Source: Membranipora membranacea
Lineage: Eukaryota; Bryozoa; Gymnolaemata; Cheilostomatida; Membraniporidae
Assembly: GCA_914767715.1 (NCBI GenBank)
Contig: OU612075.1
Location: 16,184,001-16,248,000 of the forward strand
Reading direction: 5' to 3'
Length of the DNA stretch: 64,000 nucleotides
This document shows positions 7,101 to 53,131 of the stretch, piece after piece. Numbering within the stretch: the stretch's first letter is position 1; each line of letters opens with the position of its first letter. The notes under the pieces were generated by a model. The model was not told the origin of the DNA, searched no databases, and saw only the letters and a list, made by a program, of their open reading frames with translations. The position numbers were made by a program, and so were the translations under genes.

Positions 7101-7334
7101 TCGACCTGAGTTATGAAAGGTCGGGCGTACGATAGTGTCAATTTGGCGCAAATTGAATAAATTGTCTCTTTGTGTACTATCCTTGAATTTCAGCAGCTCT
7201 TCTCTAGTGTATGTGATGGTAGATGATGTCATATTTACCATGTATGTGTTGCTGCTGACGAGATCTTTAAGATGGTGTAGGTTTGAACTGATGACTATTA
7301 CATTAAACAGCATTAAAAGGCTAAAATTGCTCAT
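4131..7334 (-). pseudogene. LINE endonuclease-reverse transcriptase, frameshifted
   Basis: The ORF reads in order: an N-terminal segment ending in the TNCQSL motif and GGGVAIF of an exonuclease-endonuclease-phosphatase nuclease (7334-6489); GDFNHLN (6492-6196); LDHIYTN and the catalytic SSDHD, then reverse transcriptase with FRPISLL, FLDMSKAFD, NGTPQGT and catalytic YADD (about 6220-4376); and a C-terminal segment to the stop at 4131. The four pieces lie in shifted frames, with breaks near 6490, 6220 and 4400-4470, so at least three indels have inactivated it. The encoded enzyme would nick genomic DNA and copy the LINE RNA by target-primed reverse transcription. Long ORFs on the opposite strand here are shadows. 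Confidence 0.9.
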
Positions 7335-8318
7335 TTTATGAAGAGCAGATTAAAAGAGAACTTTGAAAAACGTAGCCTCGTAGCTTACTAGTCTATACAG
7401 CTGTGCCTAACAGCATTTATTTATGCTCAGAACTATGAATGAAGTTTGGTCCAGCTGACAACATCTATTAACCGGAACAAAAACTGAATTGAGTTGTAAA
7501 GTTTACAGCCCTTCTTCCAACTTTTGAGCCCGGGATGTACCTTGGTGCAATGGACTTCATTGCTTGGTGTATAGTTAAAATTAATGTGAGCTTTGAAAGT
7601 TTAAATTTAATACTTTGTTTTTATCCTGTTACAGCCTAATCATGCCTAATGGACAGATCAGCTGAATACTGTACCAGTCATTATTGCCTCTATGAGAAAG
7701 AGATGGCTAACTACTGATACTCTAAAAGCTACCGATGGGTATATTACCGATTTTAGCTGCTGCACTCATTGATATGGAATATACCTCAGTGGCTGCACTG
7801 TCTCATTTGCTATCCATCCTTCTGCTACTGGACCGTTGGTGTAAGGTAAAAAATAGTCATGCATTACCTTTGACTCATTTTATTTGTTGGCCATTTGAGA
7901 TTGAAGATGGTTTTCTGTAATGTATCCAAATGATAGATTACCTATGGTCAATACGATAATCTAGACATATATTCTGCATCTTGACGATAACCATTTGTCA
8001 ATGTAACCGATGGCGCCTCCTCCCATAGGTCGTCTTATCTCCTTCTGCTCATGCTAGTACTACCTATATCTGACTAAATCAAAGTATGGGGCTCCCTGCA
8101 CACAAAGCTGTCTTCAATTTCTTCAGAGAAAATTGACCAATCTTCAATTCCAGTCTAAAATCTTTTCTTCAACTTTAAAACACTCAATCTTCAAACTTCA
8201 GTAAAATACTCGGGGAGCCCCGAGTATATGATCTTACATTTCGTCGATTCAAGCTGAGACAATCCTTTTGACACTCAATGTCATAAGGTTTTTGGTTGAG
8301 ACAGGAAACTATATGGAG
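7335..8318. other. Spacer, nothing recognised
   Basis: AT-rich sequence with no exon-like segment. A short GGGGCTCC/GGGGAGCCCC inverted pair occurs near 8088 and 8210. The 61-codon ORF at 7735 has no motif and no splice support. Confidence 0.35.
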
Positions 8319-20400: not shown

Positions 20401-23400
20401 GAGAATATGTCAACAAAAATAGTTTGATCCCCAGGCTAATAATACTGATTGTTCCATTGTGAGGTTTGTCAGTTTTCAGCAATGAAGTTGTTGGCATTTT
20501 ACTTGGTATGGGTCTAATTACTGAAATCTGTAGCTTTTCTCAAAAAGCCTTCGAAATGACTAAAGTCAATGAAGGTCTAAACTCAGGTGTAACTCATAAA
20601 GGGGCTATCATACATTGCCAATTGTCCATAAAATCATAATTGGTAATAACCACTTAGCATATCTGTTTTAATTTATCATCCATTTGATTTTGGATACACA
20701 TCTTTGGGGTAATTTTAGAGTAATATGGTCTCAAAATCTCATTATCCAACTAACCAATTTAATGTAATGAGGGTACTGTAACTCTTTGGTTTTCATTTTA
20801 CATTTACTATGCTGCCAGGGAGGCCGAAGACAGCTACTTCATTCTCTATAGAAATCTGCTCTGCTGCCAATGCTCAAGAAGCGTAGAGAATATTTCCGCA
20901 AAAATCCTGATACCAGCACATAAATTCGCCATTACGCATTTTCCATTTGCCTGAAATAGCTTAACTAACATTAACTCACTATTTTTATTAATTTTATTTT
21001 AGAGAGATTCGAATTTTAGTGTAGTTAACACTACATGTTCCCCTCACTAGCTTAACTAAGCTATAGCTGGTGTTTACTCATTCCCAGGGTATATCATCCG
21101 CTGTTATACAGAAATAACCCTGCCAGTTTATTTCGACTGAATACCAATATCAGGATTGGTCAATATAATGACTTATAACCTAAAACAGTTATGTTATACC
21201 ATATCAAATTGTTCACTGGCTGATATGGAAAAAAATTTAAATTAGTAAAACTACTAGTTGAATAAAAATATAATTTATAAAGTTTTAATTATGGATTCAC
21301 AGGGATAAGAAGTTGTCCGTTGATTATCAAATTCATTTACAATCACATCTAAAACCTTGTAAAATACGTCTTTGAGAATGAGCAATTTTTCTATACAGTT
21401 AGAGAGTTGCAGAGAGTTATCTTATAGTGAAAAAAAAGAGGATAACTCCCGGCCACTAGAATAAATATCAAGTAACACATCCGTGTGTATATTTAAGTAT
21501 AACTCCACTTAATACAAAACTTAATACTGTCAGTAGAGATGATGATAGTCCGGGTGGTGCTCCGTTATAATGCGGGCAGTAAGGGCACTGATAAGAACCG
21601 CATACCAAACATACAGTCAACTTCTGTAACTGAAACTTCTTATAGAACGTCAGCAGAAAATTACCTACAATAGATTGTCATTGATATAAAATACGGATAT
21701 ACCCTTAACATATACATAATGCTTATTTATGTTTATTGGAAATACATACCATTACTATACCATACATACCGATATTAGCTTTAAAATTACTGACAACTAT
21801 GATGCAGGGATGTACAGTTAATGTCTTTTGCAGGCTAGATAGACTTGCAACAGTAGGTAAACAAAACGTAAAGTAAAGTAAAGATCTAGTTTCACAAAAC
21901 CGGATAGTATAATGACAATGAATTGATTGGACCGATGGGAATTTAGAAAAAATCTGAATTTTAAAGTTAATTTAACTTTTTCAATTCTCCCATGGCCATC
22001 ATATCCAGAGCTGCCGAGCAGAAACAAAACACACAAAGAAGTATTCTTACCTGGCTCATAATACTCGTATACTTTTATAGAGGTGTGTTCAGCTAGATTA
22101 GATACGGGTAAACTTCTATATGCGGAAAACTCCACACAGTTTGATCTGCTTCTGTTTAGCTGAAAACACAAAAAAGTTATTGTTGTTTTCAATAATCATG
22201 CAGTGTTGTGTCATAATGCCATAATATGCCAAAAAGCCGACTGGCGTTCAATATTGATCTTCAAAACTATATTGATGTGCTTCATTTTTGCCTGAGCTGG
22301 TTCTAGTGGCATTCCAGTATTTACCACACTCTTAGCGAAGGTTGAGGTTTAACCTTCAAACCCTGTTTACGGGCAAGTTGGTGATTGGAATGTGGCTACC
22401 TTGGTCAAGTATACACGCTCTTTAATAGATATCTACTATTCATACAGTGTATAAATGCTGGACAGACATAGAGACTGTACTATGTGAAACAACACCTAGT
22501 GGAGCACTGTGGATTGAAAATCCTTTCTCAAGTAAAAATAGAATAAACTCAACCAGTAAAACTGCCTTAGAGGAATATGATGAACCATTTAAAATGGCAA
22601 GGGGAGCCCAAAAGTTCACGTGGAAGATGATGGAGGACGATACTGTTCCAGACAGTAAAATGGGAAACTAGGGAAAAAAAACTTACATTGTCAAAATAGA
22701 ATGTGTTTTTATAATAGTCTGTTTCAGCAGCTCTCAGAGCTGTTATAGATTTTAACTTCTCCACCAAAGCTATAAGCGCTTCTGGTGAAGACTTGTACCC
22801 GCTCGGTAAGTCGACCTCCATTACTGACATTCCGCTTCTATCACCTGGACCATTCCACCTACAATGCATAGTTCATATTAGATCCAACGTGAATTAAATA
22901 TGCCTGTTATGTGAGTGGGAAGCCTGAAGCATTTTTTCACTGTCGTTTTCTGTAATGTATTGTGTATGTATAAGTCACTGGATTGTAGAGAGCTTATGTT
23001 TTATTTCCGTCAACTGCCTTTACTAAGATGGCTGCACATATACATGTGTAAGGAGTTGTCCTAGTAACATCAAAGTGTACACAACTCTTAACTTCATAAC
23101 ACAATGTATTTGGCTAAATAATTATGTTTCTAAAAATGTGAACCATAGACAAAACACACAACAGTGTGTTTTATCTATGACGTGGATAATGGGTTTTTTA
23201 ATCTGACGGTATCATTTAATATACAAACAAAAACCTGGATAACTCACCTCGGACACAGCTTGTAATTGATGCTGGAATGATTGAAGCCGCTGGTTCTTAT
23301 ATCATAGGTGAAGTCTCCAAGGTCAAACACATTCTCGATCTCTGGTTGTCGAAGCTGAGTCTGCTCAAAGTCGAAGTTCTGAGTCGTCCACATCTGAACT

Positions 23401-26400
23401 AAGGCTATACCATGACCTTTCACATCTGTCTGTATGCTTCCCCAGTGTGATGGCGTCTACATAAATATAAAGACGGTGATTTACAAGAAAAAAAAAATTG
23501 TGTGACGTAATATTGTTTTCTATGGAAACCGCTCGAGATGTAAAAGGTTTTCTTGATTTTTTAGAATGAGAGAAACGAAGCCATGGTGACTGGATCAAAG
23601 AGTTGAATGAATATTGACTGTTATTTCAATATTTAATTTATTATTTGGTGATAATTTCCGCTAAATGTAGACATAAAATATTGTTAGAATATCGGTAGTA
23701 GGCAGGCTTTATCTGTAATACCAGTAATTCAAATCAGCTTATTGGGGATGATTTCAATCGAGTTTCAAGTCATGGATCAAACATGACTTTAGGAGTCACT
23801 ATTCTACTCATAGATACGACTCAACAACTCTTACTGTCAGCGATAAAGACTAAGTCAAGCTTGATCCTATTTTCCTGCTATTAGAGTTTCGAGCCGCCGG
23901 TAGAACAGGAATGATCAGAATGTTTGTATGTTAAATTTTAAAACCCTCTCTCCAGAGATGTTTACATGAAATAAAAAAATTTAGTGCATTATATTGCTAA
24001 AAAATCTGTGCAAGTTGGATCAAACTTGATCTAGGTAAAGACCATGGCGTTATCTACTCACCTCAATTTTTTGAAGATCAAACCAGTTTTCCTGATTGAG
24101 GGTGACGACCTTTCTCCAGTTCTCATCCTGATCCGATGTGAAGGTGAAGGTCATATCATAGTTCACTCTGTCCTGGTTTCTCTTAGCTAACTCTCTCAAA
24201 GCTCTCATGGCTACAAGTGTATCCTACAATCCCAAAAAATCTGTTGGTAATTATTGTGCGACGGCAAGCAATGCACAGATGGTTCACTGTTTCAACAAAT
24301 TAAACAATGATGGAGTTATCCTAGTCAAACCAATGTCATATGACACAGCACAAGGAGTCTCTCTGACTTCTCGGTTTTCACCTTTATCAAACACACATAA
24401 TTCTATGACAGAGAAAAACGATTAAGTGGGAGGGAGCTTCAGTATAGGAGGCAAATTTAATTCCTTGAAATTGAGCAGGATCATTGAATATGGAAGCGTG
24501 ACTGACCTGTGAAGAATAAAATCCACCTATGTTGATATGCTGCTCCTGCAAGAACATCTGGATTGACTCCAGTTCCACCTCAGGTGCCCTATTTTCTACA
24601 TATGCTAGCAGAGCGTATGATGTGGCTGTCACAGTGTACGCCCCTACGCTAGATACTTGTTTGGGTAAGATTCTCAGTATAGTGTCCAGCTTACTTTCCG
24701 CCAGCTCTATCTGGGGAATCTGAGCATTGGACCAGTATGTCATCCTATTGGCTGAAATAAAATCAGCAGGTCATTCAAACACGGCATAACACAGGAAGGA
24801 ATAGGTGTGCATTGTTACCATATCTCAAAGTGATTTCACGCTGGTTACACTATAGTAAAACAAGCTGTCTGACTATAGGCCACCATAAAATGCTTGGGTC
24901 TCTAAAAACCAATTTTGGTCCAGTTTGCCTGCTTACAGAGTTGCTTCCTACATTGATAAGCCGATTCTCCTGTATGGAGGGGGAGCAACTGGAATCCAGG
25001 CAAACTAGATCAAACTTGAGCTAGGGTCTCTAGTATACACAAAACCATTCTCAATGCAGGTTATATATGCTCAGAGACAATTTGTTACAACCTTTTCAGT
25101 AAAAGGGAATAACTTTAACTGAGGGAGTGGTAGTATTTTCATACCTTGTTTCTGCATGGATCTGAGCTTGAGGTAGGCCAGTTCACTAGCGGATCCCTTT
25201 CCAGCTGTCTGTAGAGCATAAGTGACAATAGCCATCTCAAACGGATCCTCAATTTCTCTGTATGTACCAGCTAAATATTCAGCTCCCAATTCAATAGCTT
25301 GTAGAACAGACTCGCTCTACGAAAATAGTAACACATGGTGGTCAAATCTACTATATCCATTTTCTACCTTTATATCGATCAATAGACATCGATGTCTGTC
25401 TGGTGGTTTCTAGAACAAGTTTAATCCAATGACCTGAATTCCTGATGCTCCCTTCCACTGGTCACGCCGACAGGCAAAGGCCTGCAGCGTGATCAGTGGA
25501 TCGGAGCTACTCGGAATTCAGGCAAATGGACCAAACTTGGTCTAGGTGGTTTCTCACTCTTTGAGACACTAGAATTTGGTAATCTATGGCTAGGTTTCAT
25601 TACTGATTGGATTATTTTCTGCTATGCATTTGTCAGTTTTTTTTCTCTTGAAGGCTGTTTATAGGGTTACTAGGTAAATTTCATGCAGCGTGTTTGCTCT
25701 GATTGGCTATTTTCACCCAGCAGATAATCAGATCAGAGCCAACACATTGGCTAGGCAGTGGTCTGCTAATAAGCTCGTAATCTAGATCCATCAAGTGCTG
25801 TGGCATGAGAAGGGCCGCAAATGAATCCATGTTATGCAGTTGTATACATATGCATTACTATACTTACCACTGTTCTTATTCCGGCCGCCCTCTTCAAAGA
25901 AGCAACACAAAATCCTGTCAAACCTAAGTTAGCAGGTATCACAATTCCATCGTTAGTCACCACATTTGTTTTGCTCTAAAACATTAAACATTATTTCGTC
26001 AAGGAGCTTGAAAATATCTCAAAATAATGCATAAATACAAGTCGAGGTAAAGTTTTGGCAGAAATATTTTCACCATGGATTACATGTCCATAAATTGCTG
26101 TGTGCACTCAAAATGCCTGAATTCCTTGATAGTAGCAGTATGGTCATCAGTCTATATGTTCAACAATACTCTGAGGACAACGCTTTGGATAGATCTATCT
26201 GCCAATGAGGCAAAACAGGGGACGGACCTCCTTCGAACCACCACAGCATATTGGAGGGAGAGAAACAATTGTTGGTGTTTCGAAGGAGATCAGACCGCAG
26301 TGTTGCACCAAATCTATGAACTTGACCAGCAAATATCATAAATATACACACTATACTATACCTGGTAAATCCTGTTATGTACACTGCCTGTCTCTCTAAA

Positions 26401-29400
26401 CATGCCAGTGGATTTATCCTGCTGGCCAACCAGCCAATCAGCGGTAATGTTGAGAACTCCCTCAGGAAATCTGAAGTTATCTTCCCTCACTGAGCTCAGT
26501 GCATCTGTTGTCAGCGCTTCTATCATTACTTCCAGTACAGTCGCAGCCAACCTGAAAATGAGTTAGTACTTTTGCTTACATAATGGAGGAGTTTTGCTAT
26601 GGAGATAGATAACCAAAAAAAAATGAGTGGGGAGTGTTTTCACATGGATATGAAAGTGATTGTCTTTTGATTCGAACCCAGATTTCACTTCCAAGCTATG
26701 ACAGAGCAGCAACATTTTCTGAAGGGAGTTTTTGAAAATATTTATATTTGTTCATCTAGCTTACCAGGTACTGGGCGTTGAGGTCCATCTAAACTGAATC
26801 CAAGATCCATCAGGTCGAGAGTAGGACAAGAACTCCTGCATAGCTGGAAAAATGAAGCATTAAGTTAGCATGACATACAGACAGTCATACAATAAAGCGT
26901 AAAATAGTGATGTTGTTTCAATTTGTACAAGGGCATGTCTACAATAAATAATTTTTAAATTTTCATCCAAACATCACTGTTATAAAATATTGTAAGTGCT
27001 GGATTGATTTTGAAGAGGATTAATACACTGATACTTCATTCAGCAGTTACCCTTTGTGTGAACATGGTACATACGAGACAATATGTTGGCTGTGATTGGC
27101 TGGTGGGTGGTGAGTTTAACCACCCAAAAGCCGATCACAGCCAACACATTGGCTAGGTATATACGTGGCGATATAGGCCTATATATAATTATTCTCATTA
27201 TTACCTGTGTTCAAGCCGGCAGACATTGCTGCGATTCTGTCTGTACTTATAGCACCGAGCGTCCTCCTTATATTAAGATCGTAAAGTTTTACAGCAAAGT
27301 TGAAGGCTGCCTCTCCTCCACTATACTGTGGCTTAGATAGCAAACTGTCGGTATCCAGATTCCCTGTAGGGGATGCAACTCCAATTATATCCCCTGAAAA
27401 TTCAAAATCATCGGTAAAGTTTTGAATATTGATTGGTGTGTCGTGACATTAGATGGAGAATAGTGCATGTGAAGAGAGTGAGCAAGAAGGGAGCAGTGAC
27501 AATCATACATTTTTTCTCAGACAAAAAACAAAAGTGAGAAGCTACCATGCTTTCATTATCCTACTTACTATGCAGTATGTACTATCCTACACTATATATG
27601 TTTTTATTCAAGTCGTTTTCCGAAATATGTTGATGTGTGTGAGGTCAACAAGTTATTTTTAAATCACTTTTATTATAAACTTTTAGAAAGGCTCAATAAA
27701 TAAATATATGAATATTACCAACAACATATATGTGTGATTTTGGAGACCCGGGTACGTGAGCAAACAGCCGATCCTCGAATCCCTGAGCTAACTCAGCGAC
27801 CGGCAGCCATAAGTCAGGTAATCTCTCCGAGTTAGCTATCCTCAAATCTACCTGGTAACTTGTTATGTTCCAATCTTTGACACCATGGTGCTACAAAAAT
27901 AAGCAATCAGGAAATTAGTTTATATAATCCGAAGTGTAATAGCGAAACATTGGCAGCAATTCATCAAACCAAAGTTCTAGCAAAAGCCATTTATACTACA
28001 TTGTACTTTTGATGCTGAAAATGAGAGAAGGGCTAATAGTTTCCATCTCTGATAGTTTTTCATTCAGAAAAGCTGGATGGGATATTACAATGAAAGAAAT
28101 GAGACATTGTCCTCGTTTTATGTGGACATTACTCCTCTCCTACAGCACAACCAACAGTCTATGTTATTAGACCAAGAAGTAACAGGTTCGCTGTTACTCC
28201 TTGTTTAGACTAATGATCCTCAGGATTAACTTGGTTCAGTAACTCGAGAAAATATTAGCAAAATTGATACCAAAGTTTCTCAACCATCGGCTAAGATATT
28301 TAGTTTTATCAGATAGTTAGATTTAGTTAGTTTTATTTGAGCTCTACTAAAACTCACGGTTACCGTGACAGCCTTAGTAACAGTATGATCACCGTAGGAG
28401 CTGACAGCGTTCACCAATACTCTGATAGTCCCAGTCCTCTCTGGTCTCACTGGTATGTTTAAGAGTCTGGATTGTCCTGCTTCTACTGACACTAGTACCT
28501 GTAATAAAACAAACATTGGTAATCAATAATCCTCAGATAGGAGAAGACTCAAAAACCTCCATCAGAGCCAGGGAGCTTAGTCATATTATGACTGTTCAGT
28601 AAGCTGGGAGTTGTTGGGAGATGTTTAGATGAGAGACATCTGAAGTGAAGATATGTAGCGGATAATTGCCTCAATCGACCCAAAGAAACCAACCAATAAG
28701 ATCTGTCACAATGTTTCCTTATAAGCTAGTCAATGTTTTGGCTCTGATTGGGCTCTCTCACTCCACCCATCCAATCAGAGCCAACACATTGGCTTCTCAA
28801 GGATAACTCCAAAAGCATTTCACAGTAAGGCCTGACCATGCTATAATCAAATAGAGTTCAAACATATTTGGATTTTGGTCTATCTATGTATACAAGATGA
28901 CATTGGAAAGTATTGCAAAGTATTACATTTTGTAGAATTAATAGATGAAAATATTGTGGCAGATCTAGCACTTAGACTGTTCCTCATACACAGCTTGTCC
29001 ATCTTGCATGTCCGACTTTAATGGTTACTCTAAGATTCAATGCAGACCTAGACCAAGTTTGGTTTTATTTGCCTACATTCGGAGTTGCTCCCCCTCACGC
29101 TGCAGGCAAAGAGGCGTGACCAGTGGAAGCAACTGGAATGCAGGCAAATTGAATCAAATTTGTTTTAGTGCAGACCTGGTGTTCTCCTTGTACAGGCAGA
29201 GAAGATAATGCTCGATCTCTATCTATTTCGATCACACTGTAATCATCTGAAGCTGGTATAGATATCAGTACATCTATTGCCTCTGTATGGAAATGTTTAA
29301 CATGGACGTTTACAATGAGAATTTCGCCGAGTCTCACTCTATCCTGCACATTGACTAACCCAATGCACCTCCTCCCAACCTAAAATAAAGCGATATGTGA

Positions 29401-32400
29401 TAAATAGATCTCAAAACACCTCTATAATCCAAATGCTATAGTCAGGCAGTTTTGAATGATGAACTTATTTGAGATATGCATGGTGAAAAATGTCAGCGCT
29501 CCTCTGGGCGTGACCTCTGACCTATTGATGGTGGGAAGTGTGCCTCCCTTAAGGCAAAGTTACTCTCATTCCCTGCATGAGATTTGTATGGTGAAAAAAA
29601 TTCATTATAATAAACTGCCTGACTATAACATGCGTTGGTATTTGGATAGTCTTTAAGACTGTCAGTTTCACTCAAAATATCGAGGCATTCCAACAGTAGT
29701 GGCACTCCATCTTGAATGCCTTGATTTTCGGAGCACAATCCAGCAGTCTGATGGTAGACAACGCTGGATGCAATACTAGGGATGAACACAACCTTATTTA
29801 GCTCTTGGCTGTGTACAGAGAACAATCCTAGAAATAAGAGACAATCATCACACCTACCCTTGTTACGTCACCACTGAGCCCATCTGCGATCGTAAGACGA
29901 GGTGTAAAGGCAAAACCATTGATTATAAGAGGCGGTCCAAATATCTGTCCTCTTAATGTGAGTTCTGCGAATCCAAGATGACTTTGTGGCAGCAAATGCC
30001 AGCCAAAGGCCAAATCGTGCCTTGCTATCTTAACTGGCCTAGATCTCCATAACGCAAAGTCATCATATAGCTTTGGTGTCTGATCGTCTTGGTTTTCATC
30101 TGCTAAAGGAAAAATCAAATTTTCTAGTTTTCACACCTAAATCTGATACACATATGAGGCAAACTCTACTCAGAATAAAGGCATTGCTATGCCCAGGAAT
30201 TGAACAGGGGGTGGGGAAGGTGTCGTTAAGGTTTTAGGGCTCACAGTACTACACTAGCCTACAACTAAAAAGAGTGTATTTAGCTAACAAAACTGTGAAA
30301 GTCCTCTCAATGCCTGCCCTGTCATCTGTAAAGGCCAAAGCATTGAAGCACCCTGTCAGCTCACAGACTTATTTTTATTACAACAAAATAGGACAGTTAA
30401 ACCAAGTGTCTTAGTACAGAGAGTGATGGTTCACTTCTCATATTTATCAGGAGAGGGGGGCTTTCTATAGAGCAATTGATTTAGATATTATTGAACATAC
30501 ATACTAATATACAGACAAAGAGACAACAAATGTTACCGTATAGCGGACATCCCATCTCGTCTCGATGATCACGAGAGCATGCTGCCGCCCCGTCACAGAT
30601 CTGATTGGCTGTATAACACGATAACCCATCCTTACAGGGATAAAGCCCCCTACCGGTGTTACATAGAGTGTATACTGCTGATATGTTAGCATCTGTGAAT
30701 ATGTACAATCCAGCATACTGAAATAAAACGAAGACTATACAAAGTCCAATAATCCATCAATCCAACATACTGAAACCATACAAAGTATACCGACTACTGG
30801 GCTCAATTGACGCCCCATGTGTGCTCCGAACTGCCTGCAAACTGAGAGCAACTTGGCGCCGAATATGGCGGTCGCGCCATTAAGGCACCTGTATTTCTCA
30901 GTCTTTGGACAGAGACATCCTTGCGATTTTAACCAACATTTAACCTACAAAGTCTAAACAAGCTGATATATTTGTCTGTGAACATGTATAATCCATTAAT
31001 CCAGCATACTGATACCAAGGAGTTAGGGACTAACTCCTTGCTGAAACCGAACAAAGACTATACTTAGTCTAAACAAGCTGATATATTTGTGTGTGAACAT
31101 GTATAATCCATACAATGATCTATACCAGTTTGAGTCATATTATCAAAAAACACTTATCTAACCTCCATATACAAAGCATTCATCACCAGCAAAGATTTTT
31201 ACAATTTACAAGGAAGCGGGTATTATCACAGTGAATTAGTGTAGGTTTTTCAATACTATTCGTATATGCAAAATATTAAAATTTATTAAAATCTAAAATC
31301 AGTAGCTAAAATAGAATCACATAAGGGAAATTGTCTCCACTTTGACATTACTGAGACAACTCCTCAGCTATTTCAGTTAATAATATAATATCAACCAGGG
31401 AAGGTATATCCCACCTTCCCTGGTTCAACGGAAGTAGTACTTGGGAACTCCAGGCAGTATTGTACTATGTCAAACCACTGATAACTAGGTAATTATTATG
31501 GATTGAATTCTACGAAGGAAGGAGCATTACATACATAGAAGGTTGAGTTTGCGTCGTGAGCGAACGTTGGAGTAGCAGCAGTCACCACATCAGTCACAGC
31601 TCCTGATTCCTTCCAGTAATGTCTGATTGAGCTGTTTGATCTATCCTCAAACGTTAAAAGCTCTTCATATACCTGGTAAGTAGGTAAGTAAGTAGGTAAG
31701 TTAGTAAGCGAGTGAGTTAGCAAGTAAGTAAGTACAATGTGAGTAAGTAAGTAAATATAATGTATATAAAAATCATAACAACCAAATGCCAGCAATGTTA
31801 TCTGCTACTTTCTTTGGCCTACAGTCAGGTCAGAGTATATATCTCTCTCGTCGCAAAAAATAATCAGATTTCTGTAACACAAAACCCAAATCAAGAGAAT
31901 TATAATCTTCTCACAATTTCCCAATTTAGTGAATTCCTATAGCCCTTTGCGTAGGAGTCGGCTTTGTTTATGGCTGTTGTGAGTAAGGCCCCAGGATCAG
32001 AGTACAGCTCTAGCTCGTAGGTACCCGAGCTAAGATCACCAGCACGATTCAGCTTTATTTCATACTGTAAAACAAATAAGACGTCAGTAAGCAAATTAGA
32101 CATTTTAGTACAATTTTACCCCCCCCCCCTGGAATAAAAAAAAACATGATTAAAGGCAGGTTATTTGTTTCTCCAAAATAGCACGATGATTGCAAGAAGA
32201 TAAGAATTGTGCTTTTTTTAAAAATCTCTGGTTGTATGCTCCGGTATAATTCATCACAACTCGCAACAACATTATGCACCTTTCCACCTTTTGTAGCGTC
32301 CACATGGTAAACCAGACTATCAGCAATGATCTGGCCGTCTGGAGTGATATAAAATACTACAATCTTAGCACTGGGCACCATGTCTATAGTAACAGGGATG

Positions 32401-35400
32401 GAGAGGAGGCGAGTGCGAGAGTTCATCTCTAGCTGAGCAGCCTGTAGAATCACTCCTAGTGAGACTATCTGTAAGTAAGAGCAGACAGGTAATTAACAAT
32501 AGGTCATTAGTAAAAATGATTCAATTAAGTTATTATTGACTTTTATATTTAAGAAACTTTTCAGGATAGGAACTTTTTTATCTTCTAAACGGATTGAAAA
32601 CATGTTTATAAAATATGTATTGTCACATGTTTTCAATTGATCAATATCACCTATCCCCCTCGGGTCCCCCTCCCGCCCAACCACAGAGCTGTCCTAATAC
32701 AATTGTGTACTAATCCTTAAACTTAAACAACAGTTGGCTTATAACAATTAGCAGATAGAATTGTCGGAAAACTCTCAGGGTAAAAACTCATTTTACCATA
32801 GTATATGAATAATAATGTCTCCATCTTTAAGTAAAACTATATATATATACACCTACAGAAAATCTACAAAGATGTTTTTTACATTTGATAGCGAAATTAA
32901 ATCCATCAATAATCATTAACAGGGACACTAAATTACCTAAACAGTGCCTTTTATGCATTAGGTCGGTGCAGTGGTACTTTTCAAGGTTAACCAACTAGAC
33001 ACAACCCCACATGGCGCCTAGATGTGGCACCTCAAACGATAGGTACCCCTAGAACAAGTTTGATCCAGTTTGCCTGCATACTAGTTGCTCCCCTTCCACT
33101 AGTCACGCCGACCAGCGAAGGGACGAGTGTAGGGGGAGCAACTCAAGATGCAAGCAAATGGACCAAACGTGGTCCTGGTAGACCTGATTCACATTTTATG
33201 GGTCATACTCACACTGTAATGACAGTACTCGGTGAAGGCGTTCGTCTCGATATTAAATACAATATAAGAGCTGACTGTAGGCTTTTTAGTTGATGTTGAT
33301 ATGTGGATGTAATGGTTGTTAGGTGACCAATATTTTGTCGCTACAAGAGTCTGCTGAGTATCAAGTTTCCCTCCAAAACTTGCCTACAATAATCAACCTA
33401 CCAGTTAAAATTTAAAAAAGTGAACTATGTATGTACATATATACATGTGGGTGTACACAATGTATCACGAGGCACGCCAGGAATTGGTGTTTAGTGCTGG
33501 CCACATAGCTGAATGCGCAGTCAAATATTAAGGTACACACATCAAAGCAACTATAGAATCAGATGATTTTGAAGTATATATTATTTTCTTCCAGAGGATC
33601 AACAATCACTGATGGTTGGCCAAGCTAACCAAAATTTTTCCTAAAGTATGATTTGAGACTGCGACTTGCAGAGCTCGGCTATTGTTATGAGATTGGAATT
33701 TGCCTCCTTATATAGTGGTTAGGCTGCTCATTTAGCAACTTAAATTATGCTTAGTACTCCTAATTCCTTGCCTAAATCAGATGTATACTGTACAATGATC
33801 CTAAAATTATTGTCATCATACATAAGGCACAAGGGCAATCAGTTGACTTTAATAAATTGAGATTTTGGTGGACAACCAAAATGTACAAGAAAATCGAGGC
33901 ATGAAAGACAGTTTCCTTCTTGCACTTAGTGCCAATGCATCTCATGAAAGTCTCAGAGGTGTATAGTAGACATTATTACACTTACTGTGTCTGTACAACT
34001 TCCTCCTACAACTGCCCCCTCCCCCTCAAATAACATTCTTTTTTTTAAATATCACAACACTGTCACATGACATCATTCGAAGTCTGTGTCTGATGAGCTT
34101 CCCAATGGTACATAAATCGTCCTAATAGGTCACTGTGGTTTTGGCCTGAACTAGAACTTGGATAATCCCTCCATTAATACTCATACACAATCCTTAGCTC
34201 ACGTTTAAAGCTGGTCTAGGTTTGATCAGGGAGAAAAGAAGTGTTTGATATATTTCAACATTGTTTAGCGCCAGTTGACAATCTATTGTTAGACTTCAGC
34301 TGATATACTCAAAGGGTTAGCAAGGGAATAACCGTAGAATATTTTTCTGGGGACACAGTTGGAATGGCTGAGATTCAAAGAATAAAGGTTGTGTAACCAG
34401 CCTGACATCTTACCTTCAACATTATTCTTTCCGTATTGGAGCTGGGTCTCAACCAATATGTAATCATACTAGACTGAGGGATGTGTATGGATTGAGCCGT
34501 GGTCGTCTCCCCTGTTTTAGAATCGGTAATGACTGTTGTTAACTCAACAGTGTGGTTCTCGTATTTTTGTAAAAGTTTTGCACCATCAATTTGTAGTAAC
34601 GCAATCTACAAATCAAAAACACAATATAATGGCAATCAAAGGAAAACCATTTTCTAGGAAGTGATTTTTTATCCGGACATAGCAAAATTATAAGTGAGAT
34701 GCATTACCCGGGAACTCAAGAAGTTACATCATAGGTTTTTATATATTTGTGCTAAAGGATATGTGTGGATGGTTGGATTATATCAGTTATAGATAAAAGC
34801 ATGGTCTTAGCCAGATAGTCTAGACTATAGCGGGACTGACCCTCTACCACAACCAGTAAGTCAAAGAGAAAAGCCAAGTTAGGCCACCAGCCAACCATTC
34901 CGGGGCCAAAGATGCTTCACAAATCCCACCAAGGAACTAACCACTGGCGCTTTCCCCTCCGAATAGACACATGTTGTGCCTATGGATACCACTGCACATT
35001 GAGGTTCTCTCTCTGCATTTGATAAGCTTTGGATTTCATTCTTGTGAAAATGTGTGTGACAGGGTTTCATCGTTTGAATGGGCATAGTTCTGAGTTCAAG
35101 GTCAAGTGCTTCCAGCTGGCTTTAAATTAAGAAAAACTATCACCAAAGCTTGTTGTGGCAGCACAGCTATTGTTTTTCTTTGTCTGTTTTTCTGGCATAG
35201 CCCAAGTATTATAGTCATAGACAAAATGTGGCTAGCAAAAGCTCACCATTTTGTTTCACGAGCATGGTCTTATTACTTTGAACATTATTAAAATCGAACT
35301 CAACTTCAAGTTTAATCCAAGATGTTTTTTTCATATATATATATATATATCTATGTAATCTTTTTCATAATCCCGGATGTTAGTTTTGTGCTAGTGACAT

Positions 35401-38400
35401 TGTCTCGATTTTTAGTACAAGGACAATTTACCCGTTTGATAAATATGATCTAATTGGCCATAAATCTCACCAGGGCTTTAAATAGCACCTGATAGATATT
35501 GTCATATTTAAAAACAACCCTATCAGTGTGACCCCATAAGCCATTAAATTTCTTTATGGTTTTGTCTTTTAGTCCTATAAATTTATTTGTGTCATCACCG
35601 AACAGGATGTGATTTTTTGTCTGAAGCAGACTGGTAGATTTTTTATATAAGTGATGGGGGTTGGTATGTGACCGCATACTTAAAGTACCTCCGTTCGGTA
35701 CACTCTGACACCTCTCAAACAAGCATCCTGCTTTCTATTTTCAAGGTAGTTTGCAATCACTATGGTTCCATGCCTCGAATCACTGGTCCACTCCCATTTC
35801 AAATGATAAAGGCTAACGATTTCCATGATGAAAAAGACATGAAAAACATTCGCCGTGGCCAGGACTTGAACCCCAGGACTTGAACCCGGGCCTCCCGCAT
35901 CAATGTCCTTTGAAGTCTTTGTGTGCAAGCCGCTAACCATTCAGCCTTGTTGGATTTGTTCCATCCGAAAGGCGAAAGGGTATCTGTTTTAGCGTGAAGA
36001 GATGTCTATCGGTTCATGCGGAAATGGTATTCCCATATATCGATCAGGCTTAAAACTGGTGTCAAATCGATATAATATGGAAACATAGTGAATAAAACTC
36101 TTGAAATTTGGTTGAGAAATTGAAAAATTAGAGTTTTTGTACTTGAATAATGTGCGTTTAGTATCGAAAGCTTTGGGAAAATTTAAAAATGCTCCTTGGG
36201 TTATTGAAAATTCATCATGCTTTGAGTACAATTGCTCTAATTTTACCAAAACCATAGGTAGTGTTTGCTACTCCCAAAGCCATAATAATAACAGTTATGA
36301 CAACAATAATAATAATGATAATCAGCCGATTGTCAAGTTTAGTTCTAGATAAATTTGGCATAAAAAATGCAATCACAGGGTCTTCCCAACTTTTAGTCAA
36401 TTTCACTTAGAGATTAGATAAGTTGGTTATTGGTGCTATATTGAATGAATTATTTACTCCCGTATGTAAGCAGGGAGTTTGTGACAGAGCATTGTACTTT
36501 ACCCCAGCCGTTGGGCGGGGGAGGGGGAGCAATAGTCGCGGGAGGGGGGGGGCTCAGACTAAGTACTTTCCAAACTCCCTGATGTAAGCTAGTTTAAAGT
36601 ATGAAGTCGATGTTTAAATTTCTAAAAGTATCATGTAAATATGAAATGGGATGATATTTCACAGGCTTTCTGTGATGGCTTTCCTAGTTATATGATAAAT
36701 GTGATAGGAATCAGGCGGGTATTGCACTATATATCGCTGGTGCATGCTGCTGGTTGGTTTAAAAAATTAATTTCAGGTCTTATTTAAAGAGTATCATGCA
36801 AAGTAAATATTTATGATCACATCCATGACAGGGTATCATAGTGCAATGAAATTTAATTAACAATGTTGGTTTATCATTTGATAGACTATTTATGTTATGC
36901 TTTGCAAATATAAATTGACATTCAATTGAAAGGTGGGGAAGGCAAATGTAATATGCTTTTAGGAGTCAAAATTTGGAACTTAGCATTGTAGATGAACTGT
37001 GAATACAGTCATAGAATTTTGTTTCAAACGGGTGCATTAAAGCAACTTCTCAAGTTAGCAAATAGTCGGCCCAATCGAGTAGTTGAAGAGATATATCTAG
37101 ATCATAGATTTACTCCTCATTTGTATACCCTTCGTTCATACACTCTCTCTGAATATTTTGCTTGTTTTGTGAGACTTTTAAATTGGTAAAATTTCGACCA
37201 ACTCAAGACCAAGAAAAATCTCTTGTTAATTAATTTTTGGAGATTGTTTTGGCCCAGCATACATTTAACCCAACCCTTACACAGACATCGAGATAACACT
37301 AGTAGAATGCGATGTCAATGTCAATATAGTTGCGGTTCCTTACATGTTCCCGCCTCAATTCTAGAAATTTACATCGGATCATCACCCCTAACACCTTTTG
37401 ATGGTACTATATAAATAAATTAAAGCTCTTGAATAATATATATATAATATTATATCACATGATCAGGATGTCCAACCCTCCAAGGCTCAATGTATACAAT
37501 CTTAATCTTTTCTCTTACTTACCATAACTTTAAAGGGCACATTTGGTTTAAATGTCCAGACATTACCTCCGAGAAACTTCAATCGTACGCTATCAGAGAT
37601 GACTTTGACAGACTCCCAGCCCACAGCTGTCTGATTTGATGACCAATCAAGTATCTCTGCTCTGACTCTCAGGTGTTTCCCTAATAGAGAGGGTTTCCCA
37701 CCTGCATGGAGGGACAATTCTGCATTGGTGAAAGCAAACTTTGCCATGCCCTTGAACTGCAATAATATAAACAGCTGAGTCAAAATGCGGGTAATGACAC
37801 TTCGCCGCACTTGGATGTTGAAATATTACATTCATCCTCGAAAAACTGAACCAAAGCCAAACAAAATACACACTCATCAGAAGTTAAATACACAGACATG
37901 AAATTTAGAGACCTTACTCAAAGTTGGATAATTCACATATTTAAATGAAATAATAATGGGATTCCAAACATCCTAATATGTTATCTCTGGAATACTTACA
38001 AACATCTTATAATAATGGGTGGATGTTACACTTTACAAAAAAAGTGAAACAGGAATTATTCTGATCAAAAGATAGGAATGGGGAGAGTTATTTTGGTGAG
38101 GCTAGCGAAAATCTGACAAAAAGTTAAACCAAAAAGACAATTTACCGATAAATGTGTACAGTTAATACATGCCTCTTTTATTTGAAGAGTGAGGGGGCTA
38201 AGTTTGTCAACAGGCTGGTCTTCACTGTCGAAAAACTCTACTGATATAGTAGCGTTACCTCGCGATATGGCGTGGACATTCTGCTGGCTGTAAAATAAAA
38301 AATAATTTTGACTGGATAAATCATTTCGAAAAAAAAAAAAAAATAGGAGTCGTCAAAATGATAATTGAATTCAATCATAAAGGACGAGAGTATGGATTGA

Positions 38401-41400
38401 AGTTTGAATGTTTTGTATTGTCTATTCTTGTTGTGTTTATTGGTAGCAGCATTGTCTCTCGGGCTATTTATTTGGGGATTATAAAAAAATAGAAAAATCA
38501 TGTTCTCACAATATAATAATAATAATAAATAATATACACTTTTATATGCTATTCAGTATTTTCAGAGCCAATTAGAATATGTCATATGACATGATACAAC
38601 TCGTCTATTTAGCGCACCCTTGTACTATAGGTAAGTGTGGGCAAACTAGAGTTATATATGACGAGCTCACCTCCATAAGCAGCATGGGTAATGACCAGGA
38701 TTCAAACCTGCAACCATTCCACCACCCTGCCACCCTCAATAGAATGCAAAGTTGTTATATGCTGACTTACACTGCCCTGATGCTGCCAGACAGCGCTTTG
38801 TCAGAGTGATAGATAGATACTGGTACAGCTACTATCACTATCCCTTCATACATTGAAGTCGCTGCAACAAATTGACACTACGTAAAATATTTAACATGTT
38901 TATTTATGCCCTATATTCCATTCCTTTCCAGTTAGTTATCCGCTATGATTGAAGCGATTAGTCTTTGTTAAAAAATATAAATGACCAACATAGCTTATGG
39001 TGTAAAATCTGATCTGTTGGCGAGTTTAAGCGGCCTGTTCAGATGATCCATTGAGAAATTAAACTAGTGTTTGTAGAATTGCCTGCCTTGGGTCAAAGAT
39101 TAGACCTATGATTCTTGGTAGTGGCTGCTGCTCAGTTAAAGTGACCAAACCAAACTACACAACAGGCTGAGGGAAAACAAGTCACAGCATCAGTTTATGA
39201 GTTTACAATCCTTTATGTATTTGACTTGGTAATTCCATACCTGGTAATCCACATCTGGGAATCCCAGGACATAAATGCATTGTGGGAATGCTCTATTGCT
39301 AAGTTTTTTGTTGTTGTTAGACTTACTGAATTCTTCTACTACAAAAGTTTTGCTGTAGGTATAACCTCTGTAGACAGCCTGCACTGTCCATACCCCGTAC
39401 TCCAGGAAGTGATTACTGAGAGGGTACTGTAGCTCTAACACATTGATAGCATGCTGCCCGTACCATTCCTTCATAATCCTCCCTGTAGGATTCTACAACA
39501 ACAACAGAAAGATAAGAACATAATGATCACCAACTGTTAAGACAGCATGTGTACATCCTTTAAACAAACTTGTTCATAATAAATTCTTTGAATCAGATGA
39601 TTTTCTAGCTGGATGTATCATTTTATCTGGTAAGGTATTTGTACTACTACGTTCAAAGCATTGTCATTGAAAGGCTACAGTGTAGATCTAAATTTGTATT
39701 GCATTGTGGGTATTTTGTGCGCAATGAGCATTGCAAGTGCCTACCTGACACAGGTAGGCAGGTACCTACCTGCAAGCGCCTACCTGAAAAGGTAGGCGCC
39801 TACCTGACAAGCTGCCTACCTGACACAAGCGCCTACCTGACACGCGCCTACCTGACGAGCGCCTACCTGACAAGCGCCTACCTGACACAGCTGTGTCAAA
39901 ATATGGCAGACTATTAAAATTACATCCGGAAACACACTTCAAAATTTCTCTTAACTCTTGTTAATGTTGATTGTTGTTGTTGTTTATGTGGATATGGTAT
40001 TTTATTTTTATTTTCAAGGTTTTTATGGCAAATAAAACAAACATTAATGGAAAATATAAATTGCTTGCTTGACAATTATTTGACCAGATAAAGCCATTTA
40101 GAATTTTTTCTGTTTCCTGAAAACCCGCAAAGTACCGCCGACTCGGGGTACATCCTGGTTCTTTAACTCTGTAAGACTCCCGTCAACAAGGTCAAAAACT
40201 AGAGCCAAGGTATTGAGTATTGGTATATTCACTTTCACAACACAGTAATGGATTTCCTATGAAAAGCATCTCAATAATGTGATAATTTAAACAACCCTTT
40301 GATCTTATGACACTAAAGCCATACAGAAGTAAACAGGGTTATGTCAGGTTAAAATAACACACAACCCTGGAAGCCTCTTGTGAAGATAACTGTGAGTGAC
40401 CGTGACCGGTGACCAATATAATTTTCTGCTTGACCGATATGATTTACTGTGAGCTCAGTTATAGTTTAAGCTCCCCAAATTCTTGCCCCCCCCCCCCCAA
40501 TCTGACGCCACCAGCCTTCTTAATCGAGATATTCTATCTGCAGAATTTCACCTACACATATCTGTGCTGGTGCTGTCATTGATAAAAATTCCCTCTAAGT
40601 CTGGGGAGAATTTCTTGATGGATTGAATCACTCCTTTTGTTCACTATATAATTACAATTTCTGTACGGGTAGGACGTTGACAATGAATTTGAGAAGCTTT
40701 GAGAAAAGTATATACATGTAATCATAGAAATGAACAAAAATTGTGATTATAGTATATAGAGACAATGAACAAGGTTGACCTCTCATAAATTTAACTAAGT
40801 CTTAGTTTATTATTTACAGATTATAGGTTTTACAATCGGCTTAATCCTGTGACCCGTGAGCAAAAGAATTCCTTATCATTTGGATAAAAAGCTGATATTA
40901 TCAAGTTGATGAACACATTGAAGTTTGTTTACTATAGTTACGGTTACTATGGTATGTTGGTTTATTTATGGTTATTATTTAGAATACAGACAATTTTTTG
41001 TATGATTATGTTCAGATTCCTATACATCCTGCTAGAGACTTGAAATAACTGTTTGAGGGTCACGTCCTGCTTGGAGGTTGTCCAATAATAGATTTAGATT
41101 TTAATTTTTCACAATTTTAAAGGATATTATGAAACATTTAAGATTTTATTGCCTACTTATTTGTAGGGTATGGCAGTATGTAACCCACAATGCATTGTTT
41201 TTAAAATTACATTGAGGTCAGGTCAATGGTTATACACTTATTTTGATTCTTCAAGATTTACAGGATGTAATACATATATGTACATGTGTATGTATATGTA
41301 TGTACATACATGTCTGTATACGTAAACATGGTATTCAGCTGATTAGGTAAACTTGTTGAATTTAAAAACAATGGGTCAATACTTACCAAAATTCGAACTT

Positions 41401-44400
41401 CCAGCACGGTGAATAGAGCTTCCATACGTAAGTTCATAGTCACAATCCTGATCCGGACTTTAACAGAAAATAATTGCTGTGTTAAGAATTCAAATTTCTG
41501 TATTCGGAAAACTGTTATAAACATGGGTGGGATTAGTCTAAGTGCTCAGACATTGCTAATTGGTGAAATTATATTATAAAACACTCATTTCAAAATTGAG
41601 TGTTTGATAATGTAATGCCACTAACCACCATTGAAGCGGTCAGAGCACTTAGACTAGGGTTGGACTGGGATCTGTTGAATCAAAACTTATATCTATCAAT
41701 ATTTATGTATATTTCCTGAAATTTTGAAAACAAAATTTCTCTAGAGGAGAAACTATTGGCTGGAGCAAAGATTGCCCCATTAGGGGTTTAGTTTGGTAAG
41801 CTGAGGGTGGAGTATATAAAAGGTTGAGAGAGTGAGTAAATGTTTGCTATACTTAAATTTAGCTCTTTAAGGCAAGAGCAAAATGGCGGACTGTCAACTG
41901 TGAGGTTTTGTGTCATCATCCTCTTGACATTCGCTATGGTTCCATGCTTCAAATGAGTGGTCCACCGTCATATTGAATGATGAATGCTAACAATTTCCAT
42001 GATAGAAAAACATAAAAAAAGTACTACCACGCCTGGGCCTCACGCATAGAAACTATTGTTCCTATGCCGCTATCCATTCTTCTACGCCCCTTATAACATC
42101 AATACTTCGCAATACGGTTCCTGAATTCGAATGAAGAAATGCGTACCAATGCGTTCAAAAGTGATCCTAAATGCCAATCCCATTTATCGATTAGCCCTAA
42201 AACCGACGTCACACCGACATATGGAAACATAGTGATAAAGTTGAAGAAAAGTAAGGAGCAAAAGTCCCAGTTGGTTAAACATAAGCAGCAACGATGAATG
42301 AATGCTGCTATATCCCTTATTTTAGGCTATATCGTTATGTTTTAGTCATTGTCCTTGATCACCTACAACCGAATTCCTTGGCCAAGTTTAAAAATGTGTA
42401 TATACAATTATTTCCTGAAAGGACCCTCAACCTAAACCCAAAGTGTGGCCAGATTGACAGCTGAAAATAAAGTGAGGCAAATTGGTCCTTCAAATAACTT
42501 TAATCATACATTCTTTGTATGAAATTCTGTTGCGGTGAAAAAAACTCGGTCAATCACTCTTAGACATTATTACAGCTCTTTGGGATTAAAAGACCCTTAA
42601 ATCAATCAAGTACCATTATTATACAGGTGCAGACTATTTGGTGTAAAGCAGAAAATTCCACAAATATAGTAATTGTTATCTCATCTTACCTGTCTGCCCC
42701 TGGAAATAGAAGGCCTTTGGGGTGAATATGAACACTGGGATCTGCTTAGGGTCAAAAAACAGCTTGGTCTCATTGACAAAGATTTGACCTAGTAACTCGG
42801 GATCTGAGTAAGCGGAGACACGTAGCGTGTAATTACCAGGCTGCATCTGAGCTGGAGTCTAAAATAACAAAGGGGGATAATATCAGCATTATTTTTTGCC
42901 TTTTTATAACTTTATTGGCATCTATATCATTATCAAATATCACCTATAGGTCAGGCCCCATCTCGGGTTCAGCCTTGAGGAATGTCTAGCAATGTGTGGT
43001 CAACATGACCTAGAGGTCATGTCTAGTCTGCAAGGTCAATTAGGGGCTGTTAATACAGTCTATAATCTGCAAATATTAATAATGGTTAATAATAGTTAAT
43101 GATGGATAAATATACATACAACTTAATAATTCTAATGTAGAATTTTCTTCCATAAACACCTCATATACCTCCCCCTCTTTGGTGTAGTAAATTAACATTG
43201 CTTCACTAAGATCACTTACTAACCTTAGAATAAACTCATAAAACAGGTGATCAATGTAAATGTATCCATGTTGATGTTGCGGTAAAGTACACCGAGTACC
43301 TACTCTAGTCTATTCCAAAGAAAGAATTCAACCACGCTAACACCATTTTATCTAGAACGTAGCAGAGAGAGCTAGCTTTGTCACGAGGCAAAATAAAAAG
43401 CGTGACAGCGTGACAGCGTGACAGCGTGCAGCGATATACCAGCTCACATTAATTCCTACCTTCATAGTTAGACTTCTCATACCAGTTCTGGTCAATGTTT
43501 CTTGAGTAGAGCATATTTCGGTTACACTCCGGTCAGACGATCTGTACCTTATCTCTGCACGTACAGTAAACGTTGAGTAATCCACGAGACGTAAAACTGT
43601 GACCGCTATAGATATATCCTGGTCCGGCCTTATCTTAGTAGGCGCCAACACAAAATAGGAGCTGAAATTACAACAAATAAAAACTAAGTATTATTTTGAT
43701 ATCGCCTTTTTTGACACCATAAATTTGATTTTTGCTGAATTTAACCACACCGACAGCAAAATTGTTTACGGAGTAGAGTTTGTGGAAACGATAAAACAAA
43801 TGCTACCTACGGCTGTTTGCTGATTTTGCCCTGGGCTTTTATCTGCAACAAGTAAAGTGAAACAAAATATGCTCTGAGCAACATCCTCACACAGCAACCC
43901 ACTTCCACGCTCAGACAAATTATTATTTATGCCTGATTCTTGACTTTATTGATAAATGTAACATATCAGTTAAACCACAGTCAAATTCTCAAAGGTTACA
44001 GTCAAAAGCTTTTGAAGAGGCACAAATGTATAAATGACATCATAATCACAACCAGCTATCACTACAAATTTCGTCTGCGACGAACAATACATCGTTTGTA
44101 AGAATTATCTTCCCGAATTGCTATAGAATTCCCTCCATTGACTTTTAGGATAAATAGAGCTGTACCAACAGAATATAACGCAAGCAAATGGTGACAATCA
44201 ACACACTGTCATTGCGCTATTGTACTATGCTATTTTACTATGCTACCGTACAATATCATATCCCTTTCGCCCATACCTCCTATAGAGTAAACAAGAGGCA
44301 CGTCTGTTGATCACAATTAAAGATTCTCAATCATCAAAGGCTCAAAAATGTTGGAATGTCATTTGAAATGATTCAACTGCCAATTTGAGTTATTAAGTCC

Positions 44401-52205: not shown

Positions 52206-53131
52206 CATCGCCCTAAAGTCTGTAAAACCGGATTGGATAACGATCGACTTCGCTAATTATGGTGTCATGCATATGGAGCTTGATCTCAGGCATCCTGGGA
52301 ACGTTCTGTACGCTGAGAACCACTGTCTGACCACCTTGAACCCGTAGGATCTGAGGTCAGACAAGGTCGTCGGCAGCAGTACCTTACGCGGTTACCATGA
52401 AGGTATCGGCGGTACAGCAAGATTCGATGTGCTCTCCGGCTTCAAGCAAGTTAATGCTACACATGTGATCGTGTTAGATAATTCAAATCACTGCGTACGA
52501 ATCGTGGATCGTACAACGAACAGAACCTCTACACTAGCAGGCAGGTGTTTGAGTTCGGGTTACGTCGATGGTTCTTCTCCGAGATTTAAGTTGCCGTTTC
52601 AAATCATTCAGTCTGACACTGAGAATCGTTATCTTATAGCTGACTATGGTAATCTCGTCATCCGAGAGCTGAGACTTGAAAATCAACAGGTATCCACACT
52701 TGTAAACACTACTGAAAAGCCAAACGCGCTGCTTCTGAGCAGAGACAGGAAATCTGTTTTCTTCAGCTGGTTTAAAGGAGTAGGTCAAGTTGACCTGCAG
52801 ACAAAGGAAGTCTAGTTTCTGACCTCCCCTGACAAGCTCTACTACGGATTTAGAGACGGCGCAGCTAATCAAGCTGTTTTTGAAAGGGTCGAGGAAATGG
52901 TCTACCTTAACGATCATCTCATACTCATGACTGATATCCGAAACAATGTCCTCCGAGTGTTCAACTTAATATCCAATTCCATATCGACAGTATGCAATCG
53001 GGACAACGGAACAGTCACTGGAACTATTGCTTCCTGTGAAATCCATCTACCCCGCTCGCTCTTAGTAATGCCAAACAGGGATCAAGTTCTTATTGGAAGC
53101 CTGAGGTACATTGGGTATCTCAATGTGACAG
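52206..53131 (+). pseudogene. NHL gene exon 3 (propeller blades, two TAG)
   Basis: 926 nt, acceptor TTCTGCAG, donor GTTAGT. It holds the propeller repeats and both in-frame TAG codons. Outside these two codons the frame is open for 307 codons with conserved NHL spacing, so no frameshift is present. Confidence 0.82.

Follow-up and report, generated by a model that had tools for sequence, protein, structure and literature searches.

A probable membrane-anchored Mcr-type protein lacking the thioester Cys and Gln in the bryozoan Membranipora membranacea

The stretch of DNA analysed here, 64,000 nucleotides from the bryozoan Membranipora membranacea (GenBank assembly GCA_914767715.1, contig OU612075.1, positions 16,184,001 to 16,248,000 of the forward strand; the window in what follows), carries an Mcr-type gene of the thioester protein (TEP) family in which both residues of the internal thioester, Cys and Gln, have been replaced. 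The gene as modelled lies on the minus strand, from 43661 to 21468. Its 28 exons, with all 27 introns of the GT-AG type, form a join of 4687 bases with a single open frame of 1561 codons and a lone stop codon at its end. The exon borders were placed by eye at a stage when no relative had yet been identified. When seven homologues were compared with the window by tblastn, their matches were confined to this gene and ran in the order of its exons, of which 24 were matched at E 1e-4 and four short ones (41387, 38771, 38146 and 28358) were not; no second Mcr copy was found in the 64 kb. An earlier note on this DNA had described an open and intact gene of 1675 residues. The frame is indeed open through all 28 exons, and the borders then given for the thioester exon (27393-27205) are identical in our model, but the length comes to 1561 residues without a signal peptide; four Watersipora subatra homologues have 1565-1578 residues in all.

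Read from its amino-terminal side, the model begins with exon 1 (43460-43661, MG1 by position), exon 2 (42690-42858, MG1/MG2) and exons 3 (41387-41457) and 4 (39327-39492), both MG2. Exons 5 (38771-38861), 6 (38146-38287), 7 (37523-37756) and 8 (34414-34605) follow, and exons 9 (33213-33383), 10 (32280-32468) and 11 (31915-32064) hold the bait-region-type domain A2M_BRD, which ends in the last of them. Between exon 12 (31535-31672) and exon 14 (29858-30099) stands exon 13 (30537-30717) with a six-cysteine LDLa-type insert, recognised from tblastn and its cysteine columns. Exons 15 (29176-29379, MG7 by position), 16 (28358-28498) and 17 (27719-27890, the border of CUB and the thioester domain, TED, by position) lead to exon 18 (27205-27393), which contains the thioester loop and the start of TED. 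This domain extends over exons 19 (26765-26843), 20 (26362-26551), 21 (25868-25975), 22 (25145-25316) and 23 (24507-24751) and ends in exon 24 (24062-24223), which by position also holds CUB sequence, as does exon 25 (23248-23456). Exons 26 (22687-22858) and 27 (22051-22159) hold the receptor-binding domain, and exon 28 (21468-21664), supported by tblastn and the alignment, encodes a C-terminal CxxC-x4-CxxC block, a hydrophobic tail and the stop. Pfam, which supports exons 4, 9-11, 26 and 27, calls MG2, A2M_BRD, TED_complement (residues 948-1290, E = 9.1e-44) and A2M_recep above cut-off in the window protein; neither an anaphylatoxin nor a C345C/NTR domain was called by it at E up to 1.

The thioester loop was read in an alignment of the window protein with 132 relatives (133 rows). 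This is a biased sample, drawn largely from the best 120 of 312 matches to the C-terminus of a tick-like protein, the named ones all arthropods; it has no named mollusc row, some of its proteins are partial, and close relatives recur many times in the counts. Exon 27393-27205 reads SLLSKPQYSGGEAAFNFAVKLY, and Ixodes MCR2 reads SLLSKPFYCGEQNMFSFAANLY at the thioester-loop position. In 133/133 rows the distance from the Pro column to the close of the FNFA block is 13 residues, the Pro itself being kept in 131 (exceptions P0126 and P0132), and the seven other TEP loops of the same genome show the same spacing, as does human CD109, which carries GCGEQ and aligns ungapped across the loop. Because this spacing is constant and the alignment has no gap, the YSGGE codons (27311-27325, minus strand) stand over GCGEQ. 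In this register the Cys column is occupied by Ser 976 (AGT, 27322-27320), Gly remains Gly, Glu becomes Gly (GGA) and Gln becomes Glu 979 (GAG, 27313-27311); each of the three replacements is a single base change, which fits the ungapped register too. The SGGEA that the earlier note had put in the place of GCGEQ is present at 27322-27308, but one residue out of register, and the Glu that it took to be the kept Glu of the motif occupies the Gln column. Its claim that Cys and Gln are both gone is true in either register. Because Cys is replaced by Ser and Gln by Glu, the window protein would be unable to form a thioester. His 1099 lies one gap away from the catalytic His of CD109 in the alignment and is present in four of the six bryozoan rows; the thioester being lost, it has nothing to act on.

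An alternative exon encoding GCGEQ, a possibility raised by the earlier note, did not emerge when all six frames of the window were scanned: there was no GCGEQ, CGEQ, C(G/A)E(Q/E/N) or GCxEQ. Besides the site itself, the pattern SGxEA has one match, which crosses a stop codon (62773, plus strand), and none of the 11 matches to the loosest pattern, Pro-x(1,2)-Cys-x-Glu, has TED sequence around it. One of these 11, PFYCLEQ in the intron between exons 26 and 27 (22663, minus strand), lies downstream of TED with no TED sequence following, and was taken as chance.

The C-terminal part of the window protein had 13 matches. The best is Bugula neritina Tep6 (P0122), with 63% identity over 95% of the part searched, and the next four are proteins of Watersipora subatra (P0123-P0126; 43-57% identity to the same part), so that the five best are all bryozoan; the remaining eight, at 30-35% identity, are arthropods plus one row that groups with ticks. 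The window protein is 49% identical to the single Bugula row, with which it shares 168 of 338 TED residues, and the Bugula protein matches exon 27393-27205 by tblastn at E = 1.9e-11. All six bryozoan rows are without both Cys and Gln: their loops read YSGGEA in the window, YSGSEA in Bugula, and YSGHEA, YSGSGA, GTGAEA and YSSFNA in Watersipora. Across the 133 rows both residues are kept in 71, Cys alone is lost in 46, both are lost in 16 and Gln alone in none. Ser is the commonest replacement of Cys overall, standing in the Cys column with Gln kept in 40 rows. The other ten rows that have lost both belong to two sea spiders, Niponia, the mite Blomia, one row grouping with Lycorma, four malacostracans and one copepod. 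Retention of both residues would not in itself prove a bond, because the first Gly of the motif is usually changed. The four malacostracan rows (P0128-P0131) share the loop VGCEP, with a Cys one place past the Cys column and Pro in the Gln column, and two Mcr rows of Eupeodes corollae differ at the reactive Cys (P0039 and P0045, ECAEQ vs ESAEQ). In Watersipora the Mcr family seems to be expanded, P0123-P0125 probably sharing one contig and the fourth row lying on another.

Bryozoan rows form one group in each of three trees inferred with the 13 motif columns left out: a tree of 57 rows (support of 100 in the Shimodaira-Hasegawa-like approximate likelihood ratio test, SH-aLRT), a tree of 37 rows, five of them bryozoan, under a mixture model (SH-aLRT 100), and a FastTree tree of 133 rows (local support 100). 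On the 57-row tree at least 12 changes are needed between sites that keep both residues and sites that do not; the 133-row tree requires no fewer than 17 changes in the Cys column and 5 in the Gln column. Since the bryozoan root is a meeting point of long branches in all three trees, our claim is limited to the bryozoan rows grouping together and sharing the loss. Two further trees, of 36 and 33 rows over 148 columns, include the seven other TEPs of the same genome as an outgroup and cover three groups only, with A2M and C3 rows left out. With support (bootstrap/SH-aLRT) of 100/100 and 100/97, the seven TEPs separate from every Mcr-type row; the bryozoan Mcr rows are likewise grouped (100/99 and 100/100), while the arthropod rows form one group in the 33-row tree alone (23/79). 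These trees set the window gene apart from the other TEPs of the animal.

Those seven loci were located by a PF00207 search of the genome (18 contigs with 339,339,785 bases in total; the window is C11:16184001-16248000), whose nine matches all lie outside the window. Their loops read PYGCGEQ in L011, L012, L013 and L014, PFGCGEQ in L015 and PYGCAEQ in L009 and L010. As all seven keep PxGC(G/A)EQ, the same animal retains the thioester residues in other TEPs, and the loss is a feature of its Mcr. Two pairs stand out among these loci: L009 and L010 (G000:C4), about 18 kb apart, are a near-identical, recent tandem-like pair in which the middle Gly has become Ala (GCAEQ), and L013 and L014 (G000:C11), about 19 kb apart, are a close GCGEQ pair on the same contig as the window, about 6.5 Mb away from it.

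The assignment to Mcr, made in the earlier note as well, draws on several features. According to a snail study, the marks of an Mcr protein are an LDLa domain where others have the anaphylatoxin or bait region, an altered thioester site, and at the C-terminus a membrane helix and four conserved cysteines (PMC7016707). Our protein has the six-cysteine LDLa-type insert, the C-terminal cysteines and the hydrophobic tail. The six LDLa cysteine columns are common to 126-129 of the 133 rows and the Asp-Glu of the insert to 129 and 128, and the four C-terminal cysteines are conserved in every row. The tail of the window protein is a hydrophobic stretch of 16 residues with a mean hydropathy of 2.16 (a transmembrane helix or a glycosylphosphatidylinositol, GPI, signal); 131 of the 133 rows reach a tail hydropathy of 1.6, a threshold of our own choosing applied in place of a membrane predictor. 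The non-canonical site is likewise present (YSGGE), although as a family rule it is loose, given the 71 rows with Cys and Gln. The intron before the LDLa-type exon (30718-31111) contains short direct repeats (51 nt at 94%, 30 nt at 90% and 32 nt at 78%), some copies of which resemble by eye the beginning of the exon, as though a second copy of its edge had arisen there and decayed.

Known proteins place these observations in context. Bugula Tep6 and the Watersipora CD109-like proteins belong to the same family and share with the window protein the exon order, the absence of both residues, the LDLa-type insert and the C-terminal cysteines; they differ from it in half or more of the TED residues and in each having loop letters of its own. 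Arthropod Mcr proteins (Drosophila Tep6/Mcr, mosquito, tick IrMCR) share with the window protein the order of domains, the LDLa-type insert, the hydrophobic tail and the four cysteines at the C-terminus. For insect Mcr, the parallel drawn in the earlier note holds in part: Cys is lost there too, but named insect rows that have lost it retain Gln (e.g., ESAEQ), many keep both residues, as do many chelicerates (Ixodes MCR2, YCGEQ), and the window protein has neither. Drosophila Mcr is described with Ser in place of Cys (PMC9363628), and a figure legend on ticks gives IrMCR-1 as without the bond and IrMCR-2 as keeping it (PMC7962413). Biomphalaria glabrata MCR, as described in two studies, resembles our protein in its LDLa domain, C-terminal membrane helix and mutated site (PMC7016707, PMC9363628), while its replacements are other ones, a comparison made by description and with no snail row aligned; a partial snail sequence matched to MCR, A2M-2, reads GGGEM, with both residues gone (PMC9363628), which suggests that the loss of Gln may predate the bryozoans. 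An arthropod survey states that the whole Mcr clade is without canonical GCGEQ and that most thioester-less proteins are without Cys (PMC4833078), and the snail study that every Mcr orthologue carries a mutated form of the canonical site (PMC7016707). Our 133-row counts refine these statements. A thioester-less Mcr is therefore already known from insects, one tick copy and a snail, and it is the additional loss of Gln that is less usual. We found no study of thioester proteins in bryozoans among the open-licence papers listed, one of which names both topics in unrelated passages.

Two further comparisons are with complement C5 and CD109. C5 has the thioester-domain fold without a thioester (PMC12254109). 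Among single domains, the C5 TE domain matches the predicted model of the Bugula protein best. C5 is soluble and has anaphylatoxin and NTR domains, the two that Pfam did not call in our protein. Among solved structures, CD109 is the closest by sequence (8s3o, 1.4e-69), and it ranks first in Foldseek for the Bugula model. CD109 is not known to have an LDLa insert, and it differs from the window protein in retaining GCGEQ. Its attachment to the membrane is by GPI (PMC7016707).

Taken together, the gene very likely encodes a probably membrane-anchored bryozoan Mcr that has lost its internal Cys-Gln thioester in evolution and has kept the macroglobulin frame and TED. With the thioester lost, it would not attach covalently to its targets, and TED would serve as a plain protein-binding domain with ordinary, reversible binding, much as in complement C5. 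Least certain is where it would act and on what: by analogy with Drosophila and mosquito Mcr, it might reside on the surface of epithelia, with septate junctions as the probable site, and might help to recognise microbes or shed a soluble ligand from its cysteine-rich insert region.

A decaying pseudogene, or an assembly or sequencing error at the site, is a very unlikely explanation. It would account for the loss of both reactive residues and for the relatively long end branch of the window protein, but it sits poorly with one open frame over 28 exons with GT-AG borders, with the four C-terminal cysteines and, above all, with Bugula and four Watersipora copies that have neither Cys nor Gln at the same place. 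The six-out-of-six pattern therefore speaks against both a sequencing error, a concern of the earlier note, and recent decay; the view taken there, of a conserved family member and not a pseudogene, agrees with the single bryozoan group (SH-aLRT 100) and a TED about half identical to that of Bugula. The chance that the protein is of the CD109 or iTEP type, with a lost thioester, and not an Mcr, is small, if somewhat greater. This would suit the place of CD109 as best solved relative and first in Foldseek, the name CD109 antigen-like borne by four of the five bryozoan relatives and the C-terminal Cys cluster shared by iTEP-like loci of the same genome; on the other side stand the Mcr features set out above and, with slight weight, the outgroup trees. 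Slimmest of all is the prospect that the Ser-Glu pair forms some other covalent or labile bond, such as an ester, and preserves a latch-like function. The Cys column does hold Ser or Thr in all six bryozoan rows and the Gln column Glu in four, but thioester formation expels an amide that Glu does not have, two of the six rows have Gly or Asn in the Gln column, and Ser is what most often replaces Cys even where Gln is kept.

Several observations nevertheless weigh against an Mcr that has simply lost its thioester. The end branch of the window protein (0.79) is longer than those of P0122-P0124 (0.29-0.52), if shorter than that of P0126 (0.93), and an outgroup tree of three groups cannot alone show one origin of bryozoan and arthropod Mcr. 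Pfam did not call LDLa in the whole protein or in exon 13 alone (E up to 1); the insert is degenerate and may not bind calcium. LDLa is listed by Pfam for only about 23 of the 120 listed matches to the tick-like protein (counted by eye), and the model therefore misses many Mcr inserts. The TEPs L013 and L014 have a similar C-terminal cluster, CxxC-x3-CxxC, so the C-terminal cysteines alone do not make an Mcr; unlike the window gene, both end in FKRK, by eye without a hydrophobic tail. Fold prediction covered the Bugula protein and not the window protein. Finally, the gene model lacks the protein start, as no convincing signal-peptide exon was found in a scan of 43.7-62 kb; of three weak candidates there, the best (49818-49760, MEFDIQLITVCAYLALLVR) has a poor donor, gttagg.

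A more far-reaching version of the loss, which we regard as rather unlikely, is that the whole bryozoan Mcr family was freed of its thioester before its copies multiplied, other TEPs of the same animal keeping theirs, and that the pocket was rebuilt as a conserved Ser/Thr-Gly-x-Glu-Ala loop that took on a separate function, such as that of a non-covalent latch or a docking site. Throughout Mcr, Cys would then have been lost first and Gln later, never in the reverse order.

Elsewhere in the window, at 4376-7349 (minus strand), lies a probable retrotransposon without long terminal repeats, with a 624-aa reverse transcriptase open reading frame (Pfam RVT_1, 2.6e-28) and, ahead of it, a 286-aa frame with a weak endonuclease match below cut-off. 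A 231-aa open frame at 54672-55367 (minus strand), with no Pfam match, resembles by eye a portion of a further retroelement protein. A 155-aa frame at 52348-52815 (plus strand), with an NHL-like stretch at E 0.0041 (below cut-off), may be an exon belonging to a nearby gene on the opposite strand. Within the Mcr gene, several introns (e.g., 33060-33180, 25420-25540, 24930-25050 and 29070-29160) contain recurrent 'TTTGGTCCATTTGC...AGTTGCTCC', partly as inverted repeats, which by eye resemble small mobile elements.

Our reading would extend thioester-less Mcr to Bryozoa, a new phylum for a known family, and would fit the view of Mcr as an old protostome protein. The counts also suggest that lack of a thioester is not what defines Mcr: both residues are kept in 71 of 133 rows, and in none is Cys kept with Gln lost. 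The contrast between 46 rows that have lost Cys alone and none that has lost Gln alone could be the more interesting lead, in a biased sample that counts related sequences repeatedly. A thioester-less Mcr beside thioester-bearing TEPs in one and the same animal, together with a family that shows every stage of the loss, would, moreover, offer a natural series for studying the role of TED after the thioester has been lost.
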